Assembly (NCBI RefSeq): GCF_009193295.2
Contig: NZ_CP059973.1
Coordinates: forward strand, 310,001 to 374,000
Direction: 5' to 3'
Source of the DNA: Bacteroides luhongzhouii
GTDB taxonomy: Bacteria > Bacteroidota > Bacteroidia > Bacteroidales > Bacteroidaceae
Length of the DNA: 64,000 bases
Shown here: piece by piece, positions 8,862 through 46,823 of the stretch
Position numbering within the stretch: the first letter of the stretch is position 1
How the letters are laid out: the number at the start of each line of letters is the position of its first letter
Program-made: the position numbers and the translations under genes
The notes under the pieces: generated by a model
Database searches by the model: none
What the model was told of the DNA's origin: nothing
Seen by the model: the letters and a program-made list of their open reading frames with translations, nothing else

Positions 8862-9190
8862 GTGCGACAAGAAGTCGTACAAGTAATTGTTCAGCATGAT
8901 GTCTGAACCTATTGTTCCGTCAATAGTAGCCTAAAGAGGCGTGCTTGACTGGCAACGGTCGGGTGCGAAGCCCTCCCTCTGAAAAGGGTCTGCATACCGA
9001 AGAAGAACGGCAAGATAAGTACATATTGGAGAAAGGGCTGAACTTTATCGGAAGTCGTTGCCTGAAAAAGGACGGATGAGCCGATTTAGTTTTATGAGAA
9101 CTAAATTTTGAATTATCGGAACTGTATGCGGTGAAACTCGCACGTACAGTTCTTAATGGGAAAAGTGGCGGTAACGCCGCCGACCTGCAT
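8862..9190 (+). ncRNA. Short ORF-less group II intron-like ribozyme
   Basis: The element begins GTGCGAC, the conserved group II 5' end. It contains a 34-nt domain V at 9119-9152: GAACTGTA pairs with TACAGTTC, a two-base CG bulge follows, and the tip is a GAAA tetraloop inside a TGCG/CGCA stem. A hairpin GGCG-GTAA-CGCC after it could be domain VI. A small hairpin, TTTAGTT (9085-9091) with AACTAAA (9099-9105), could be what remains of domain IV, where a reverse transcriptase would normally sit. Only about 330 nt are present and no maturase gene is seen. The usual AGC triad reads AAC. It is probably a degenerate or minimised intron; the 3' boundary is approximate. Confidence 0.72.
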
Positions 9191-17815: not shown

Positions 17816-17825
17816 TAACCGATTC

Positions 17826-17905
17826 ACTGGTAGGGGTGCCTTAACATGACGGGCTGAGAACATACCCATAGAATCTGATCCGGGTAATGCCGGCGTAGAG
17901 AACTA
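17826..17905 (+). promoter_or_regulatory. TPP riboswitch (THI element)
   Basis: The conserved aptamer parts occur in order: AGGGGTGCC, GGGCTGAGAACATACCC, then GAATCTGATCCGGGTAATGCC and GGCGTAG. It ends 13 bases before the ATG of the TonB receptor, so it probably controls translation or access to the start when thiamine pyrophosphate is bound. Confidence 0.96.
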
Positions 17906-17918
17906 ATTAGTAAGCAAA

Positions 17919-20180: not shown

Positions 20181-20747
20181 ATGGAATTGAATTTTCTGGA
20201 AATATTCGGTACGATTGTCGGGCTAGTCTACCTTTGGTTGGAGTACCGGGCAAGTATCTATCTTTGGATAGCAGGTATCGTGATGCCTGCCATCTATATC
20301 TTCGTATATTATAAAGCAGGACTGTATGCCGATTTCGGTATCAATATCTACTATCTGATAGCTGCCATCTACGGTTGGTTCTTTTGGATGTGGGGAGGGA
20401 GGGAACCCAAAAATCTTCCTATCGTACATACTCCGTGGAAATGTTACTTACCTCTTTTTCTGGTATTTATTGCCACATTTATCGGCATTGCATGGATACT
20501 GATCGAATATACGGACAGCAACGTGCCCTGGCTGGATAGTTTTACTACGGCATTGAGCATTGTCGGCATGTGGATGCTGGCACGCAAATATATCGAGCAA
20601 TGGTTTGCCTGGATTCTTGTGGATATTGTCTGCTGCGGACTTTATATCTACAAAGACCTTTATTTTACTTCTGCTTTATACGGACTTTACTCCATTATAG
20701 CTATCTTTGGCTACTTTAAATGGAAAAAATTAATGAATATACAATGA
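20181..20747 (+). CDS. pnuT: PnuT-type thiamine transporter (PnuC family)
   Basis: A 188-residue inner-membrane protein with about seven hydrophobic helices. The start LNFLEIFGTIVGLVYLWLEY and the motif NIYYLIAAIYGWFFWMWGG are the PnuC-family signature (WxxW region). The family mediates facilitated diffusion of vitamin precursors that are trapped by phosphorylation. Position between a riboswitch-controlled receptor and a thiamine pyrophosphokinase points to thiamine. It begins 12 bp after the receptor gene and ends in an ATGA overlap with the kinase gene. Confidence 0.9.
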   Translation: MELNFLEIFGTIVGLVYLWLEYRASIYLWIAGIVMPAIYIFVYYKAGLYADFGINIYYLIAAIYGWFFWMWGGREPKNLPIVHTPWKCYLPLFLVFIATFIGIAWILIEYTDSNVPWLDSFTTALSIVGMWMLARKYIEQWFAWILVDIVCCGLYIYKDLYFTSALYGLYSIIAIFGYFKWKKLMNIQ

Positions 20748-21370
20748 TAAGCGAACACTATACTCCCGAAGCCGTCATACTTGCCAACGGCGAATATCCT
20801 ACGCATGCGCTTCCCCTGAAAATACTGGAAGAGGCTAAATTCGTGATTTGTTGCGATGGAGCAGCCAACGAATATATCTTACGTGGACATACCCCGGATG
20901 TGATTATCGGTGACGGAGATTCTCTTTCTTCGGAAAACAAAACACGCTTTTCGGACATTATTCATCATATAGCCGATCAGGAAACAAACGACCAAACCAA
21001 GGCTGTCCACTTCCTGCAAGAAAAAGGCTACCGGAAGATAGTCATCGTCGGTGCTACCGGAAAACGGGAAGACCACACATTGGGAAATATCAGTTTGCTG
21101 CTGGATTATATGAAAAGCGGTATGGAAGTGCGGACAGTTACGGATTACGGAGTATTTATTCCGGCAAGTGGCACGCAGACTTTCGTTTCCCACGCCGGGC
21201 AGCAAGTATCCATTATCAATTTCGGAGCGAAAGGATTGAAAGGGGAAGGATTGGTTTATCCGCTTAGCGACTTTACGAATTGGTGGCAAGGGACTCTTAA
21301 TGAGGCTACAGGCAATCGTTTTACCATTCAGTGCACGGGAGAGTATTTAGTATTTCTAGCTTCTATATAA
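20744..21370 (+). CDS. Thiamine pyrophosphokinase
   Basis: Starting at the ATG that overlaps the pnuT stop (20744-20747), the protein has 208 residues and begins close to AVILANGEYPTHALP. An in-frame ATG at 20720 is unlikely because it lies inside pnuT. VICCDGAANEY, VIIGDGDSLS and the Asp-rich DQETNDQTKAVHFL match the catalytic domain of TPK, and GATGKREDHTLGN follows. The C-terminal part is the thiamine-binding sheet. It makes TPP from thiamine and ATP, trapping imported thiamine. Confidence 0.92.
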   Translation: MISEHYTPEAVILANGEYPTHALPLKILEEAKFVICCDGAANEYILRGHTPDVIIGDGDSLSSENKTRFSDIIHHIADQETNDQTKAVHFLQEKGYRKIVIVGATGKREDHTLGNISLLLDYMKSGMEVRTVTDYGVFIPASGTQTFVSHAGQQVSIINFGAKGLKGEGLVYPLSDFTNWWQGTLNEATGNRFTIQCTGEYLVFLASI

Positions 21371-21402
21371 ACCGATATTAACTCTCAAGACATTTTATTA
21401 CT

Positions 21403-21481
21403 ATGAGAAAATATTCTCATTGCAATGAGAAAAAATACTCATAGTGATGAGAACTTTTTCTCATTGCGGTGAGAATATCTC
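21403..21481. repeat. Tandem palindrome array, 22-bp period
   Basis: Three 18-bp inverted repeats of the form ATGAGAA-N4-TTCTCAT begin at 21403, 21425 and 21447, and a partial fourth (GTGAGAATATCTC) begins at 21469. They are separated by four-base linkers TGCA, AGTG and TGCG, giving an exact 22-bp period. The second unit has one arm mismatch. The array is downstream of the thiamine operon and convergent with thrC. Confidence 0.85.
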
Positions 21482-21542
21482 TTTCATTCCAATAGACTGA
21501 CAACGCTTCACATCCCCCTGTCTAACAGTCTATTAAGACTGA

Positions 21543-22844
21543 CTATAATGAAAGCAAATAGCTCTTGAAATCTGCAAACTCTTTCGTCATTTGCAAGCTC
21601 TTCTTCTCGCCTTTCATAAATTCCTGCAATTTGGCAGGTATCTCTACTGATTCACCGATAATGCTTTCCACTGTTTCAAGGAATTTAGCCGGATGAGCCG
21701 TTTCAAGGAATACACCCGTTTCGCCTTCTTTCAAGCCTTCTACCAATGCACGGTATCCGCAAGCTCCGTGAGGATCGAGGAGATAATGATGTTCTTTCCA
21801 AGTTTCTTTCACCGTTTCACGGATCTGCTCGTCGGTATAAGTTGTTCCTGAAATTTCGGCAGAGATAGCAGCATGCGAACCATTATACAAATCAAGTACA
21901 CGGGCAAAGTTGCTAGGATCTCCCACGTCCATAGCGTTAGCGATTGTTGCAATAGACGGACGGGGATTGTATTTACCTGTTTGCAGGTATTGATAGAAAA
22001 TATCGTTGCGGTTGTTGGCAGCAATGAAACGCTTCACAGGCAATCCCATTTTCTTTCCGAACAATCCTGCGGTGATATTTCCGAAGTTTCCGCTAGGTAC
22101 GCAGATGACGGCGTTATCTGCTTTTCCGGCACGCTTCAGTTGAGCGTATGCATAGAAATAATAAAATGCTTGTGGCAGGAAACGGGCTACATTGATGGAA
22201 TTGGCAGAAGTCAATGATAGATGTTCATTCAGCTCCTTATCCATAAAAGCAGCTTTTACCAATGCCTGGCAATCATCAAACGTTCCGTCCACTTCGAGGG
22301 CAGTGATGTTCTGCCCCAGTGTAGTGAATTGTTTTTCCTGTATTTCGCTGACTTTTCCTTTCGGATAGAGCACATATACATGAATACCGTCCACACCCAG
22401 AAAACCGTTAGCCACGGCACTTCCCGTATCACCGGAAGTGGCTACCAGTACATTTACATTCTTCTGTCCTTCTTTCTTAATGAAGTATCCCAGCAGACGT
22501 GCCATGAAACGACCGCCTACATCTTTGAAGGCCAGTGTCGGTCCGTGGAAAAGTTCGAGCGAGTAGATGTTATCCGCTACCTTCACCAAAGGTACATCAA
22601 AACTTAATGTATCATATACAATCTGTTTCAAGGTGTCGGCAGGAATGTCCTCACCGAAGAAAGCATCGGCTACACGATAAGCTATTTCCTGAAAAGACAA
22701 CGTATCAATTGTATCGTAAAACTCTTGTGGAAGAGGCTTGATAGACATAGGCATAAACAACCCTTTATCGGCTGCAAGACCCTTTACAACTGCTTCCTGT
22801 AAAGAAGCCACCGGCGCTTGTTTATTCGTACTATAATATTTCAT
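21543..22844 (-). CDS. thrC: Threonine synthase
   Basis: A 433-residue PLP enzyme of fold type II. MKYYSTNKQAPVASLQEAVV is a typical ThrC start. PTLAFKDVGGRFMARLL carries the PLP lysine, VATSGDTGSAVANGF binds phosphate, and SANSINVARFLPQ follows. It converts O-phosphohomoserine to threonine. It is the third gene of the thrA / kinase / thrC cluster on this strand, 127 bp after the previous gene, with a repeat hairpin in the gap. Confidence 0.95.
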   Translation of the reverse strand: MKYYSTNKQAPVASLQEAVVKGLAADKGLFMPMSIKPLPQEFYDTIDTLSFQEIAYRVADAFFGEDIPADTLKQIVYDTLSFDVPLVKVADNIYSLELFHGPTLAFKDVGGRFMARLLGYFIKKEGQKNVNVLVATSGDTGSAVANGFLGVDGIHVYVLYPKGKVSEIQEKQFTTLGQNITALEVDGTFDDCQALVKAAFMDKELNEHLSLTSANSINVARFLPQAFYYFYAYAQLKRAGKADNAVICVPSGNFGNITAGLFGKKMGLPVKRFIAANNRNDIFYQYLQTGKYNPRPSIATIANAMDVGDPSNFARVLDLYNGSHAAISAEISGTTYTDEQIRETVKETWKEHHYLLDPHGACGYRALVEGLKEGETGVFLETAHPAKFLETVESIIGESVEIPAKLQEFMKGEKKSLQMTKEFADFKSYLLSL

Positions 22845-33876: not shown

Positions 33877-36339
33877 ATGAAGACAAAGAATATTATGATT
33901 GCCCTTACACTCCTGACGACAGGAACAGCATGGGCTGAAGATTTCCCCAAAGACTCACTAAAAATAGTAGACATCGAAGAAGTGGTAGTGATTGCTACCC
34001 CGAAAGAGAATCGTAAATTGCGTGAATTGCCGGTAGCCGCCACTGTTTTATCACAAGATAATATGCGAGCCTATCAGGTGAACTCTGTAAAAAACCTGAC
34101 AGGCATTGTCCCCAATCTGTTTATCCCCGATTATGGTTCCAAACTGACCACTTCCATTTATATCCGCGGAATCGGCTCACGTATCAACACTCCGTCCGTA
34201 GGACTTTATGTAGACAACATCCCTTATATCGACAAATCCGCTTTCGACTTCAACTATGCTGATATCGAACGTATTGACATTCTCCGTGGACCACAAGGTA
34301 CTCTCTACGGACGTAATACGATGGGAGGACTTATCAAAGTACACACAAAATCGCCTTTCACTTATCAAGGTACTGATATCCGCATGGGAGCAGCAACTTA
34401 CAATAATTATAATGTTTCACTCACCCACTATCATCGGACATCCGACCGCTTCGCTTTTTCTACCGGAGGTTTCTACGAACACACAGGTGGCTTCTTTGAA
34501 AATTCGGCAAGAAATAACGAAAAAGTAGACAAGAGCAATGCCGGTGGCGGACGTTTCCGTGGTATTTACCTGCCTACTTCGAACCTGAAAATAGATATGG
34601 CTCTTAGCTATGAATATAGCGATCAAGGCGGTTATCCCTATTATTATACCGGGATTACCCCCAGTGCAATAGCTAAAGCGAAAGAAAATGGTAAAGAAAT
34701 TACAGAAGACCGGGCAGATTATATCGGTAAGATTTCATATAACGACCGCAGCAGTTACCGCCGTGGATTACTCAACTCCGGTGTTAACATCGAATATCAA
34801 GCTAACAACTTTATATTAAGTGCCGTGACAGGTTATCAGAACTTGAACGACCGTATGTTTCTCGATCAGGATTTCACAGAAAGAGATATTTTCAATATTG
34901 AGCAAAAGCAACGTGCAAACACCATTTCCGAAGAGATTGTGTTGAAAGCCAAACCCGGAAAAAGATGGCAATGGGCTACGGGAGCTTTCGGATTCTATCA
35001 ATGGCTGCATACGACAGGTCCTGTTTTGTTTAAAGAAGAAGGTGTGAAGTCGGTCATTGAAAACAACGCCAATGCCGCTTTTAAAGAAGTATCTGCCAAA
35101 CCCGGAGCTCCCACCATGGGAATGACTGTACACAACCCGTCATTAAGCGTAGGAGGAACTTTCGATACTCCGACTCTTAGCGGCGCACTTTATCATCAGT
35201 CTACTTTCAGCAACTTGTTCATAGAAGGGCTGTCCGTTACAGCCGGCCTCCGGCTCGATTACGAGAAAATCAGTATGAAGTATAATTCTCTTAGCACTCC
35301 TATCGACTTTGGTTTTGATTTTCACATGGCAAAGGGTCCCATGCAAATCAACCTGTCCGATCAGAATATGAAAGCCCCGGCCTCTTTTGTAGGCAAGCTC
35401 TCTACTGATTATGTACAGCTTCTACCCAAATTTGCTATTCAATATGAATGGAAGAATCAAAATAACGTTTATGCCACCGTTACCCGGGGATATCGTTCGG
35501 GAGGATATAACATCCAAATGTTCTCTGACTTATCACAAACAGAATTGAAAAATTCGATGATGAATGCCATCAAAGAAAGTCCGACAATAGGACAAGATCC
35601 CACCTGGGGAGCAACCATTATTAAAATGATGGACCAAATGGTGCCTGCAAAAGAGATTGATGTAAAAGCGTCCACTACTTACAAACCCGAATATTCGTGG
35701 AACTACGAAGTAGGTAGCCACCTTACTTTATGGGAAGGCAGACTTTGGGCCGACGTCGCAGCATTCTACATGGATACCCGCGACCAACAACTCTCCCAAT
35801 TTGCAGAAAGTGGTTTGGGACGTATCACTATCAATGCAGGAAAAAGCCGCAGTTATGGTGCAGAAGCAGCTCTTCGTGCCAGTGTGACAAAAGCATTTAA
35901 TCTGAATGTTAGTTACGGATATACGTATGCCACTTTTACGGATTATGTAATCACAGAAGAGAAAAAAGATGGCACTCCTATAACTACGGATTATAATGGC
36001 AAATACGTACCCTTCGTCCCCAAACACACTCTGAACATCGGTGGAGAATATGCCATCACTTGCAGTCCGCGCTCTATCTTCGACCGGGTTGTATTCCAAG
36101 CTAATTATAACGCTGCAGGACGTATCTACTGGAGTGAACAAAACGATGTCAGTCAATCTTTCTATGGCACACTCAACTGGAGAACGAATCTGGAAATCGG
36201 CGACGCAATGATTAGTTTTTGGGCACGCAACTTCCTGAATAAAGACTATGCCGCCTTCTACTTTGAAACAATGAACAAAGGCTTTATGCAGAAAGGACGC
36301 CCAATGCAGTTTGGGGTAGATCTCCGCTGCCGCTTCTAA
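33877..36339 (+). CDS. TonB-dependent receptor, siderophore-type
   Basis: An 820-residue receptor. The signal peptide is MKTKNIMIALTLLTTGTAWA. A short linker with VDIEEVVVIATP, which is TonB-box-like, leads to the plug (LRELPVAATVLSQDNM, IYIRGIGSRINTPSVGLYVD, ERIDILRGPQGTLYGRNTMGG). A 22-strand barrel ends QFGVDLRCRF. The RGPQGTLYGRN form is common in FecA/CirA-like and Sphingomonas-type receptors. It is not a SusC, because the carboxypeptidase-like N-terminal domain is absent and no SusD follows. The ligand is unknown; the LuxR-like gene upstream may regulate it. Confidence 0.88.
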   Translation: MKTKNIMIALTLLTTGTAWAEDFPKDSLKIVDIEEVVVIATPKENRKLRELPVAATVLSQDNMRAYQVNSVKNLTGIVPNLFIPDYGSKLTTSIYIRGIGSRINTPSVGLYVDNIPYIDKSAFDFNYADIERIDILRGPQGTLYGRNTMGGLIKVHTKSPFTYQGTDIRMGAATYNNYNVSLTHYHRTSDRFAFSTGGFYEHTGGFFENSARNNEKVDKSNAGGGRFRGIYLPTSNLKIDMALSYEYSDQGGYPYYYTGITPSAIAKAKENGKEITEDRADYIGKISYNDRSSYRRGLLNSGVNIEYQANNFILSAVTGYQNLNDRMFLDQDFTERDIFNIEQKQRANTISEEIVLKAKPGKRWQWATGAFGFYQWLHTTGPVLFKEEGVKSVIENNANAAFKEVSAKPGAPTMGMTVHNPSLSVGGTFDTPTLSGALYHQSTFSNLFIEGLSVTAGLRLDYEKISMKYNSLSTPIDFGFDFHMAKGPMQINLSDQNMKAPASFVGKLSTDYVQLLPKFAIQYEWKNQNNVYATVTRGYRSGGYNIQMFSDLSQTELKNSMMNAIKESPTIGQDPTWGATIIKMMDQMVPAKEIDVKASTTYKPEYSWNYEVGSHLTLWEGRLWADVAAFYMDTRDQQLSQFAESGLGRITINAGKSRSYGAEAALRASVTKAFNLNVSYGYTYATFTDYVITEEKKDGTPITTDYNGKYVPFVPKHTLNIGGEYAITCSPRSIFDRVVFQANYNAAGRIYWSEQNDVSQSFYGTLNWRTNLEIGDAMISFWARNFLNKDYAAFYFETMNKGFMQKGRPMQFGVDLRCRF

Positions 36340-36371
36340 TCATTCTCACTCATAGAGATATTATTTAGTCA

Positions 36372-36503
36372 TTTTATTGTCAGCTAAAGATTTTATCCAT
36401 ATAGAACAATGATTATCAACTCATTGACACCTGACAATAAGTGCTGACAATAACCCAAAAACAGGCTGACAATAAAAGATTCAGACTTTTATTGTCAGCC
36501 TGT
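36372..36503. repeat. CTGACAATAA repeat cluster with 18-bp stem hairpin
   Basis: CTGACAATAA occurs at 36431, 36444 and 36466, and its complement TTATTGTCAG at 36374 and 36489. The last two copies lie in a perfect inverted repeat with 18-bp arms (36461-36478 and 36486-36503) and a 7-base loop. It lies after the TonB receptor gene and could terminate its transcript, but no T run follows. Confidence 0.8.
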
Positions 36504-36618
36504 CTCTTATAGATTGATGGCATAAAATACGTGATAGAAGAACGTATGCCTCTATGAAGTATGTATTATAAAGCCGTTATACTTAATTAATCCAATAAGC
36601 ATTGTTCTCTTAAACCTA

Positions 36619-36728
36619 CGCTATCTTTACCTTTCCATGGCTGTGGTAACTTCTCTTCACGGCCGTGGAGAGATCTCGTCACGGCTGTGGGAAGAAGTCA
36701 CCACGGCCGTGGGAAGGTAAAGATAGCG
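36619..36728. repeat. Four CACGGCYGTGG palindromes, 22-bp period, in a closing stem
   Basis: CACGGCCGTGG-type units start at 36636 (CATGGCTGTGG), 36658, 36680 and 36702, exactly 22 bp apart. Outer arms CGCTATCTTTACCTT (36619-36633) and AAGGTAAAGATAGCG (36714-36728) are perfect complements that enclose the array. The period equals that of the unrelated array at 21403. Confidence 0.88.
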
Positions 36729-36792
36729 GTACCTTCACACAACTATACCGGCATCTTAACAGAACTATACCGGTGTCTTGGCATTACTTTAC

Positions 36793-37302
36793 CTACAGTT
36801 TCCTATTGGGCACACGCATCATCTGATAAGCGATACGCTCTGTCCCGTTCTTTACATAAATGATGCCACAACGTTGAAAGCCATACTTCGTCAATATATG
36901 CTGCATGACTTTATTGTCCCGATGAGTATCTACCCGAACATTGGGCCAACGTTCGAAGCACCAGTTCAGGCAAGTTTCCGATACCCCTTTCCGTTTTCCG
37001 TTCGTTGCCAACCGGTGAACCACTCCATAAGGTTCATTATTAAGCCATGCTCCTTCATAAATTTGTTGATAAGTAGGATCTTCTCCCAAGATAAAACAAA
37101 AAGTCCCCAAGATTTCTCCCTGTTCATCTATGCAGACAAAGCTATGTCTATCCTCAATTTCCCGACGAATCAATCCTTCAGAAGGATAGCCGTCAATCCA
37201 TTGGGTAGTATTTCCGGTTGCACGCATGAAAGCACGGGCATAGTCATAAATCTCCATCACCAAAGGGAGATCTTTTATTTCGGTAGACCTGATTTCCATC
37301 AT
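36793..37302 (-). CDS. GNAT family N-acetyltransferase
   Basis: A 169-residue GNAT protein. It begins IRSTEIKDLPLVMEIYDYAR, has the central strand FVCIDEQGEILGTFCFI, the acetyl-CoA region HRLATNGKRKGV, and the C-terminal VDTHRDNKVMQHILTKYGFQRCGIIYVKNG, as in many Bacteroides GNAT proteins. The acceptor is unknown. It is 36 bp after the zinc-ribbon lipoprotein gene on the same strand, so it may be the last gene of a metA / U32 / lipoprotein / GNAT transcript. Confidence 0.85.
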   Translation of the reverse strand: MMEIRSTEIKDLPLVMEIYDYARAFMRATGNTTQWIDGYPSEGLIRREIEDRHSFVCIDEQGEILGTFCFILGEDPTYQQIYEGAWLNNEPYGVVHRLATNGKRKGVSETCLNWCFERWPNVRVDTHRDNKVMQHILTKYGFQRCGIIYVKNGTERIAYQMMRVPNRKL

Positions 37303-46746: not shown

Positions 46747-46823
46747 GGCGGGATAGCTCAGCTGGTTAGAGCGCATGATTCATAATCATGAGGTCCCCGG
46801 TTCAATCCCGGGTCCCGCTACCA
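46747..46823 (+). tRNA. tRNA-Met (anticodon CAT)
   Basis: A full cloverleaf: acceptor GGCGGGA/TCCCGCT (G1-U72 wobble), TA at 8-9, D stem GCTC/GAGC, anticodon stem CATGA/TCATG with loop TTCATAA, variable AGGTC, T stem CCCGG/CCGGG with TTCAATC, then A and CCA encoded. The lack of a C1-A72 mismatch and of three G-C pairs in the anticodon stem argues against initiator tRNA. A tRNA-Ile with lysidine-modified CAT cannot be excluded. Its 3' end is the element attachment site. Confidence 0.93.
46809..46821 (+). repeat. attL core
   Basis: CGGGTCCCGCTAC spans the T-stem end, acceptor strand and first base of CCA of the tRNA gene, so integration leaves the tRNA intact. The same 13 bases occur at 54975. 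Confidence 0.8.

Follow-up and report, generated by a model that had tools for sequence, protein, structure and literature searches.

Background

Iterons, the direct repeats of plasmid replication origins, set their protein sites roughly two helical turns from one another, along one face of the double helix. The gyrase sites of BIME-2 lie between convergent genes, are tied to supercoiling and form one sequence family. The arrays described here resemble iterons in that their units follow each other at two helical turns and would lie along one side of the helix. Unlike the direct repeats of replication origins, and unlike the single family of BIME-2, they are palindromes and belong to several families.

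REP sequences and BIMEs are intergenic palindromes in many copies, found mainly in gaps between convergent genes or genes in the same direction. They are targets of insertion sequences, roles in supercoiling and termination have been proposed for them, and REP units are 20-40 bp long and classed mainly by GTAG or CGTC ends (PMC1525189 and PMC3733652, in the portions accessible). Compared with what those portions describe, the present arrays are likewise palindromic repeats in many intergenic copies, but they are short palindromes locked at 22 bp and come from several unrelated families. No GTAG or CGTC tag was shared among the units read, as judged by eye only. The repeats flanking TnpA-REP subclass 2.6 (RAYT group 5) genes are mostly from Bacteroidetes, have atypical structures that lack the GT[AG]G foot and occur in further copies elsewhere in the genome (PMC6006769, accessible part). 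The RAYT gene of the genome studied here is similarly flanked, by palindromic repeats of about 21 bp; unlike the subclass 2.6 repeats, so far as that source describes them, arrays of the families F1 to F9 were not seen beside RAYT, and most array-bearing genomes are without it.

The BrickBuilt MITE of Porphyromonas gingivalis consists of intergenic tandem direct repeats of 23 nt with predicted long stems. It is one family in one species, with a leader and a tail, and the accessible text of its description reports neither phased palindromes nor exchange of families (PMC4596501). The present arrays are like it in being intergenic, of near-equal unit length and from Bacteroidales, and unlike it, as there described, in that the unit is 22 bp rather than 23 nt with leader and tail. 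The 77-bp inverted repeat of P. gingivalis was also considered and set aside, the available parts of its descriptions giving no sign of a 22-bp phase (PMC3969353, PMC8757827). The accessible text of the openly licensed PMC literature yielded no account of palindrome arrays with a 22-bp period in Bacteroides. Strict geometry combined with turnover of the letters sets these arrays apart from REP, BIME and BrickBuilt as described in the parts cited.

The array and its surroundings

The window is the whole stretch of DNA analysed, 64,000 nucleotides of Bacteroides luhongzhouii (contig NZ_CP059973.1, positions 310,001 to 374,000). The array lies in a gap flanked by convergent frames, a TonB-dependent receptor (stop at 36339) and a 169-aa frame (end at 36793). 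The latter is acetyltransferase-like by eye only, and gave no match to Pfam or NCBIfam. The original prediction had described four phased palindromes inside arms perfectly complementary over 15 bp. Both are present exactly where it had placed them (Table 1), with spacings of 22, 22 and 22 bp. The third base of core unit 1 is T, and the CACGGCTGTGG units are imperfect palindromes.

Table 1. Features of the window discussed in the text (position 1 is the first nucleotide of the window).
Feature	Position	Strand	Remark
Core unit 1, CATGGCTGTGG	36636..36646		sequence read directly
Core unit 2, CACGGCCGTGG	36658..36668		sequence read directly
Core unit 3, CACGGCTGTGG	36680..36690		sequence read directly
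Core unit 4, CACGGCCGTGG	36702..36712		sequence read directly
Closing stem, left arm, CGCTATCTTTACCTT	36619..36633		local; not conserved between copies
Closing stem, right arm, AAGGTAAAGATAGCG	36714..36728
Period-22 self-similarity, loose cut-off	36618..36815		takes in the right-hand units
TonB-dependent receptor	33877..36339	+	ends at left side of gap
169-aa open frame	36793..37302	-	ends at right side of gap
Second 22-bp palindrome array, family F2, ATGAGAAnnnnTTCTCAT	21385..21484
Thiamin pyrophosphokinase	20720..21370	+	left neighbour of F2 array
Threonine synthase	21543..22844	-	right neighbour of F2 array
TPP riboswitch	17822-17918	+	Rfam match
tRNA	46747-46820	+	Rfam match
Group II intron D1-D4-7	8908-8986	+	Rfam match

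Taken as a whole, 36619-36728 is a single ungapped 55-nt inverted repeat, 82% complementary, and the right part of the period-22 self-similarity consists of ATACCGGYATC-type units at 36723-36788. The predicted fold of 36610-36800 exceeds chance on both strands, with z values of -12.4 (+ strand) and -8.7 (- strand) against 200 dinucleotide shuffles. A covariance-model search of the window with Rfam returned three matches, none of them at 36619-36728, and a search for terminator-like sites over 36300-36850 found none.

Hairpins with TTTTATTGTCAGCC / GGCTGACAATAAAA arms occur near the array, at 36372-36503 of the window, and also near other F1 arrays (L009, 2031-2102 and 2538-2590; L011, 2343-2387). 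Stretches resembling them match several further places in genomes G021 and G093. They are another interspersed palindrome family.

Copies of the array and the strictness of the spacing

The array belongs to a family, F1, that occupies seven places in the B. luhongzhouii genome (one contig, 5.76 Mb), the copies being 69-84% identical within aligned stretches. Two further matches in the same genome are weak (E 0.54). A pair of F1 units at 22 bp was found in 11 of 99 genomes of a genus sample, 3 of 201 of a family sample and 1 of 80 of a phylum sample, B. luhongzhouii itself being included each time, and the control with the reversed pattern gave zero among the matches listed. B. xylanisolvens, B. 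finegoldii, B. congonensis, a Mediterranea MAG and some other Bacteroidales are among the carriers (64 stretches). With seven copies at home and the unit pair in 11 of 99 genus genomes, the array is not a one-off duplication, the outcome that had been named as fatal to the original prediction. Because F1 unit pairs are absent from the other 88 of the 99 genus genomes, no single family is needed. Outside the phylum, some matches to the F1 pattern come from GC-rich genomes and seem to be due to chance or to unrelated repeats. In a Deltaproteobacteria MAG a CACGGCCGTG unit pair with a GCGCTTTCGCGC linker is repeated at several loci (L054, L058); this is probably an unrelated REP-like repeat.

Strictness was assessed on 23 F1 arrays from five Bacteroides genomes, comprising all seven from B. 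luhongzhouii and a chosen part of those from the others (three from G021, six from G086, four from G091 and three from G093). Near-identical copies from G091 were excluded, as was the array at L207, which has three units and is interrupted by inserted DNA. Exactly four units were recognised in 22 of the 23 arrays, and the 23rd has a diverged unit where one is expected. The spacing is 22 bp in 67 of 68 intervals and 44 in the remaining one, which supports the earlier claim that the phase is held. Among 91 units, picked at no more than two mismatches and hence biased towards constancy, the outer C, A, T and G are invariant and changes within the palindrome are, with one exception, all transitions. 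Six positions flanking these units stay purine or pyrimidine, again with one exception. The 11-bp linkers, which had been thought not conserved, are thus not free. The Mediterranea MAG, with different linkers, has a spacing of 22 bp in 65 of 73 intervals, and some of the others are chance matches.

When the 110-bp flanks on both sides of 22 F1 arrays are compared with themselves, identity reaches 0.43 at lag 22, whereas the remaining lags between 15 and 30 give 0.23-0.29. The 22-bp phase extends at least 110 bp to both sides, through sequence without the core palindrome.

The same period in unrelated palindromes

The original prediction saw one family, F1; several unrelated palindromes share its period, among them the F2 array inside the same window (Table 1). 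In two samples of the B. luhongzhouii genome, drawn irrespective of repeats, 22 bp is the leading tandem period. The first (464 kb) gave 13 matches at 22 bp, followed by 5 at the double period of 44, and the second (400 kb) gave 4, followed by 3 at 44, some gaps yielding two matches; these 17 matches in 864 kb extrapolate to the order of 100 per genome. When 100 kb from each of four other Bacteroides genomes is included (1.264 Mb), there are 28 matches at 22 bp, 12 at 44, 4 at 21 and 4 at 39. Of the 278 gaps in the same 1.26 Mb, 27 contain a period-22 match, and any other period from 14 to 40 is seen in at most four. Other genera of the family (334 kb) gave 8 matches at 22 bp and at most 3 at other periods, and other families and classes of the phylum (335 kb) gave 1 match at 22 bp. 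There was no match at any period from 14 to 60 in 100 kb of E. coli, nor, at the cut-offs chosen for the 464-kb sample, at any period from 12 to 60 in its trinucleotide-Markov shuffles.

The period-22 arrays are palindromic and those of unrelated period are not. Their mean dyad score is 0.73 (shuffled, 0.53), with 16 of 32 at 0.75 or above, compared with 0.52 (shuffled, 0.49) and 1 of 31 for unrelated periods. Near or double periods (21, 23, 42 and 44) score 0.70 (shuffled, 0.54), with 10 of 24 at 0.75 or above. Five of the 32 period-22 matches fall within called open frames and two at the edges of stretches. When perfect 10-bp palindromes were paired by distance, 22 bp was not special (two pairs, none in arrays), because many units are imperfect.

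Families at period 22 include CACGGCCGTG (F1), ATGAGAAnnnnTTCTCAT (F2), GTTTCn7GAAAC (F3) and F4, a composite with TATATnnCC and TTGG; judged by eye, they and the further families seem unrelated to one another. The B. luhongzhouii genome holds F2 at 13 places and 39 matches to an F3 unit pair (at most two mismatches; control zero). At L119 and L120, the gap of the present array in G012 and G086, F4 consists of one 21-bp and two 22-bp blocks of different sequence, which sit inside longer inverted repeats.

Exchange of families at syntenic places

Of 19 genomes searched for the gap at 36619-36728 (place 1), 18 matched, and the six examined are those in which the gap was read. All six hold a 22-bp array. 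Where the gene pair is strictly identical, in three genomes, the array is F4 (G012, G086) or F3 (G091). G093 has an F1 array and is without the 169-aa frame, the receptor thus facing the next gene. G021 has an F1 array surrounded by inserted frames, of which one resembles a transposase by eye. An additional frame stands beside the receptor in G001, and an F3 array lies between that frame and the 169-aa frame.

The place of the F2 array (place 2) was matched in all 18 genomes searched. Thiamin pyrophosphokinase directly faces threonine synthase in six of them, and five of these have an array, which is F2 in G086 and of the TGGCACaaccGTGCCA type (F6) in G021, G012, G091 and G053; G093 has none. 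The other 12 have a different neighbour next to threonine synthase, and in eight an array lies in the adjoining gap. These eight are F2 in G030, F3 in G001, a AAACAGATGATGCGTTT type (F7, grouped by eye) in G042, G047, G073 and G079, and the further types F8 in G018 and F9 in G014. The G079 array overlaps a called 75-aa frame, and no array was detected in G081, G057, G087 or G096. An array is present in total in 13 of 18 genomes and absent from 5, close species sharing arrays by descent at both places; with periods from 18 to 26 scanned, only 22 was found at place 2.

The family has been exchanged with the period kept at these two syntenic places, which are few and were both picked because B. 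luhongzhouii carries an array there; the background rate is 8 of 43 sampled convergent gaps. The comparison of syntenic gaps proposed with the original prediction leaves it standing, since the period stays at the places compared. The comparison suggests that spacing, not sequence, is what relatives often keep at such places.

Position relative to genes

With open frames of at least 90 codons taken as genes, without annotation, arrays were found in 8 of the 43 convergent gaps, in 13 of the 169 same-direction gaps and in 6 of the 66 divergent ones. The excess in convergent gaps is weak (8 of 43 against 19 of 235, Fisher p 0.047; in the first and second samples of the B. luhongzhouii genome, p 0.058 and 0.24). 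In the same-direction gaps 11 of 13 arrays are closer to the upstream stop. The arrays are mostly 3' of genes, often between convergent genes.

Pairing within the arrays

Selected stem sides should match better within copies than between them. The model examined takes the middle linker as the centre of a hairpin and also includes the dyads within units and within linkers. Pairing within and between copies was 0.295 and 0.497, 0.823 and 0.859, 0.500 and 0.570, 0.950 and 0.954, and 0.549 and 0.580 in the core zones, the last pair of values being that of the closing stem, and 0.663 and 0.599, then 0.467 and 0.476, in the first and second flanking zones, figures that carry no significance test. 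Linkers pair with themselves at 0.547 and with other linkers at 0.649. No excess of compensatory changes was found among 87 F1 units, except at one of 11 pairs (p 0.018), or among 33 F3 units, except at one of 8 pairs (p 0.024); the power of these tests is limited, the copies being related. G-T and A-C mismatches are about equally frequent.

The closing stem is not conserved from copy to copy, and the proposal that it is part of the element was dropped. The alternative of an RNA with several hairpins, or one long one, was not supported either, the folds being strong yet without covariation; it was retained as a minor rival. As covariation is lacking and G-T mismatches are about as frequent as A-C, the arrays appear to act as DNA rather than as one RNA strand. 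Within the limited power of the tests, the data speak against selection for RNA or a cruciform in F1.

Mobility and inserted DNA

An element of about 540 bp around the F1 array is present in B. congonensis (G091) in three full copies, about 98% identical and at different places, and in a fourth, partial copy. Such near-identical dispersed copies point to mobility, although no clear end pair or target duplication was seen by eye among the five copies aligned in that comparison. In B. luhongzhouii the flanks of five of the seven F1 places match a B. xylanisolvens F1 locus over at least 1.9 kb, and most F1 copies are therefore old.

One and the same inserted DNA borders on F1 arrays at four places (L207, L208, L210 and L222), which belong to two species, and L222 and L224 have another inserted stretch in common. 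Judged from these sequences, F1 arrays may, like REPs, serve as targets of insertion.

A single Y1 transposase gene was found in the B. luhongzhouii genome (L271); by NCBIfam it is a REP-associated tyrosine transposase (RAYT). Mobilisation of all arrays by RAYT was an attractive idea because this gene carries palindromic repeats of about 21 bp on both sides (L271, 1119-1201 and 1880-2020). Its repeat differs from the array families, however, and no array family was found adjacent to RAYT. At a RAYT gene of G066 (L287) the palindromic repeats measure about 18 bp, and other Y1_Tnp loci (L274, L275) have repeats of 18-20 bp with other motifs. The idea was rejected as a general explanation: of the 99 genus genomes three have the RAYT protein, in one case as a 46-residue fragment, and Y1_Tnp gave no match in the F1-bearing genomes G021, G086, G091 and G093.

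A CRISPR-like array was also rejected, since the linkers are interrelated and occur in both orientations and are not unrelated spacers. The phage and plasmid collections yielded one unannotated phage record and five B. finegoldii records named plasmids, one of which carries ordinary chromosomal genes; nothing in them pointed to an origin from phages or plasmids.

Interpretation

The class is found in Bacteroides and its family, with a strict period and several unrelated families. Our main reading, to which we give a probability of roughly 0.4, is that the array is the F1 member of a class of intergenic DNA elements in which phased dimer sites act as a boundary. Palindromes at exactly 22 bp, or two helical turns, would have their dyads on one helix face, and each could bind a putative protein dimer. 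A nucleoprotein block 3' of genes would then arise from about four such dimers in register, flanked on both sides by weaker in-phase sites. Often placed between convergent genes, such a block could form a boundary in both directions, by halting RNA polymerase that arrives from either side or else by managing supercoils. The letters might change and the period not, provided that the block could be built by several resident proteins that differ in site preference. This reading is favoured by the exact spacing and unit number, the phase in the flanks, the lead of period 22 and its dyads, the exchange of families, the placement 3' of genes and the missing covariation. Against it stand the weakness of the convergent excess, the 88 genus genomes without F1 unit pairs, the five genomes with no array at place 2, the signs of mobility in B. 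congonensis and the five period-22 matches within open frames. That several different proteins all use 22 bp is an extra assumption that this reading needs.

Tandem or long hairpins in 3' untranslated RNA, formed on both strands and serving as terminators or stabilisers, are an unlikely explanation. They would accord with the very stable predicted folds on both strands, with the position of arrays 3' of genes and with the Mediterranea arrays, which are bordered by A and T runs like two-way terminators. What counts against them is that in the core zones stem sides from one copy pair no better than sides from different copies, that G-T and A-C mismatches are alike in frequency, that compensatory changes exceed expectation at just one of 11 F1 pairs and one of 8 F3 pairs, and that 36300-36850 holds no terminator-like site; nor do RNA hairpins need an exact 22-bp register. 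More improbable again is a by-product of mutation, in which palindromic DNA duplicates in 22-bp steps without selection, for example by hairpin-guided template switching. It would account for one period in many unrelated sequences and for arrays of the form P-l-P-l'-P (L171, L186), but the fixed F1 count of four and a spacing kept across much divergence look maintained, the linkers pair less with themselves than with one another, and we know of no process with a 22-bp step.

It is nearly as likely as the boundary reading that the arrays are REP- or MITE-like mobile repeats without host function, many families of them spread by one class of machinery that needs palindromes two turns apart, and that they gather downstream of genes since insertion there harms least. 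The B. congonensis copies, the numbers of F2 and F3 matches in the B. luhongzhouii genome and the palindromic repeats beside its one RAYT gene all favour this, and REPs are likewise placed mainly in convergent and same-direction gaps (PMC3733652, accessible part). Set against it are the rarity of RAYT and the unmatched Y1_Tnp in four F1-bearing genomes, the age of most F1 copies and the lack of any target duplication seen; mobility alone also leaves one period across unrelated families unexplained. Mobile repeats and a boundary function may both hold.

Going beyond the main reading, and held more tentatively than either of these two, is a general form of the boundary proposal. A Bacteroidaceae element would be defined by geometry, not sequence, as about four palindromes two DNA turns apart. 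Several phase-reading proteins could each build it as a DNA-level boundary 3' of genes, and certain gaps would keep the block over long evolutionary times while other families replace its letters wholesale.

Implications

As the letters turn over and the spacing stays, similarity searches would overlook a common feature of abundant gut bacteria. If the arrays are only mobile, many repeat families are tied to one geometry, which would point to one unknown machinery. If they are functional, they would offer a handle on how Bacteroides separates converging genes.
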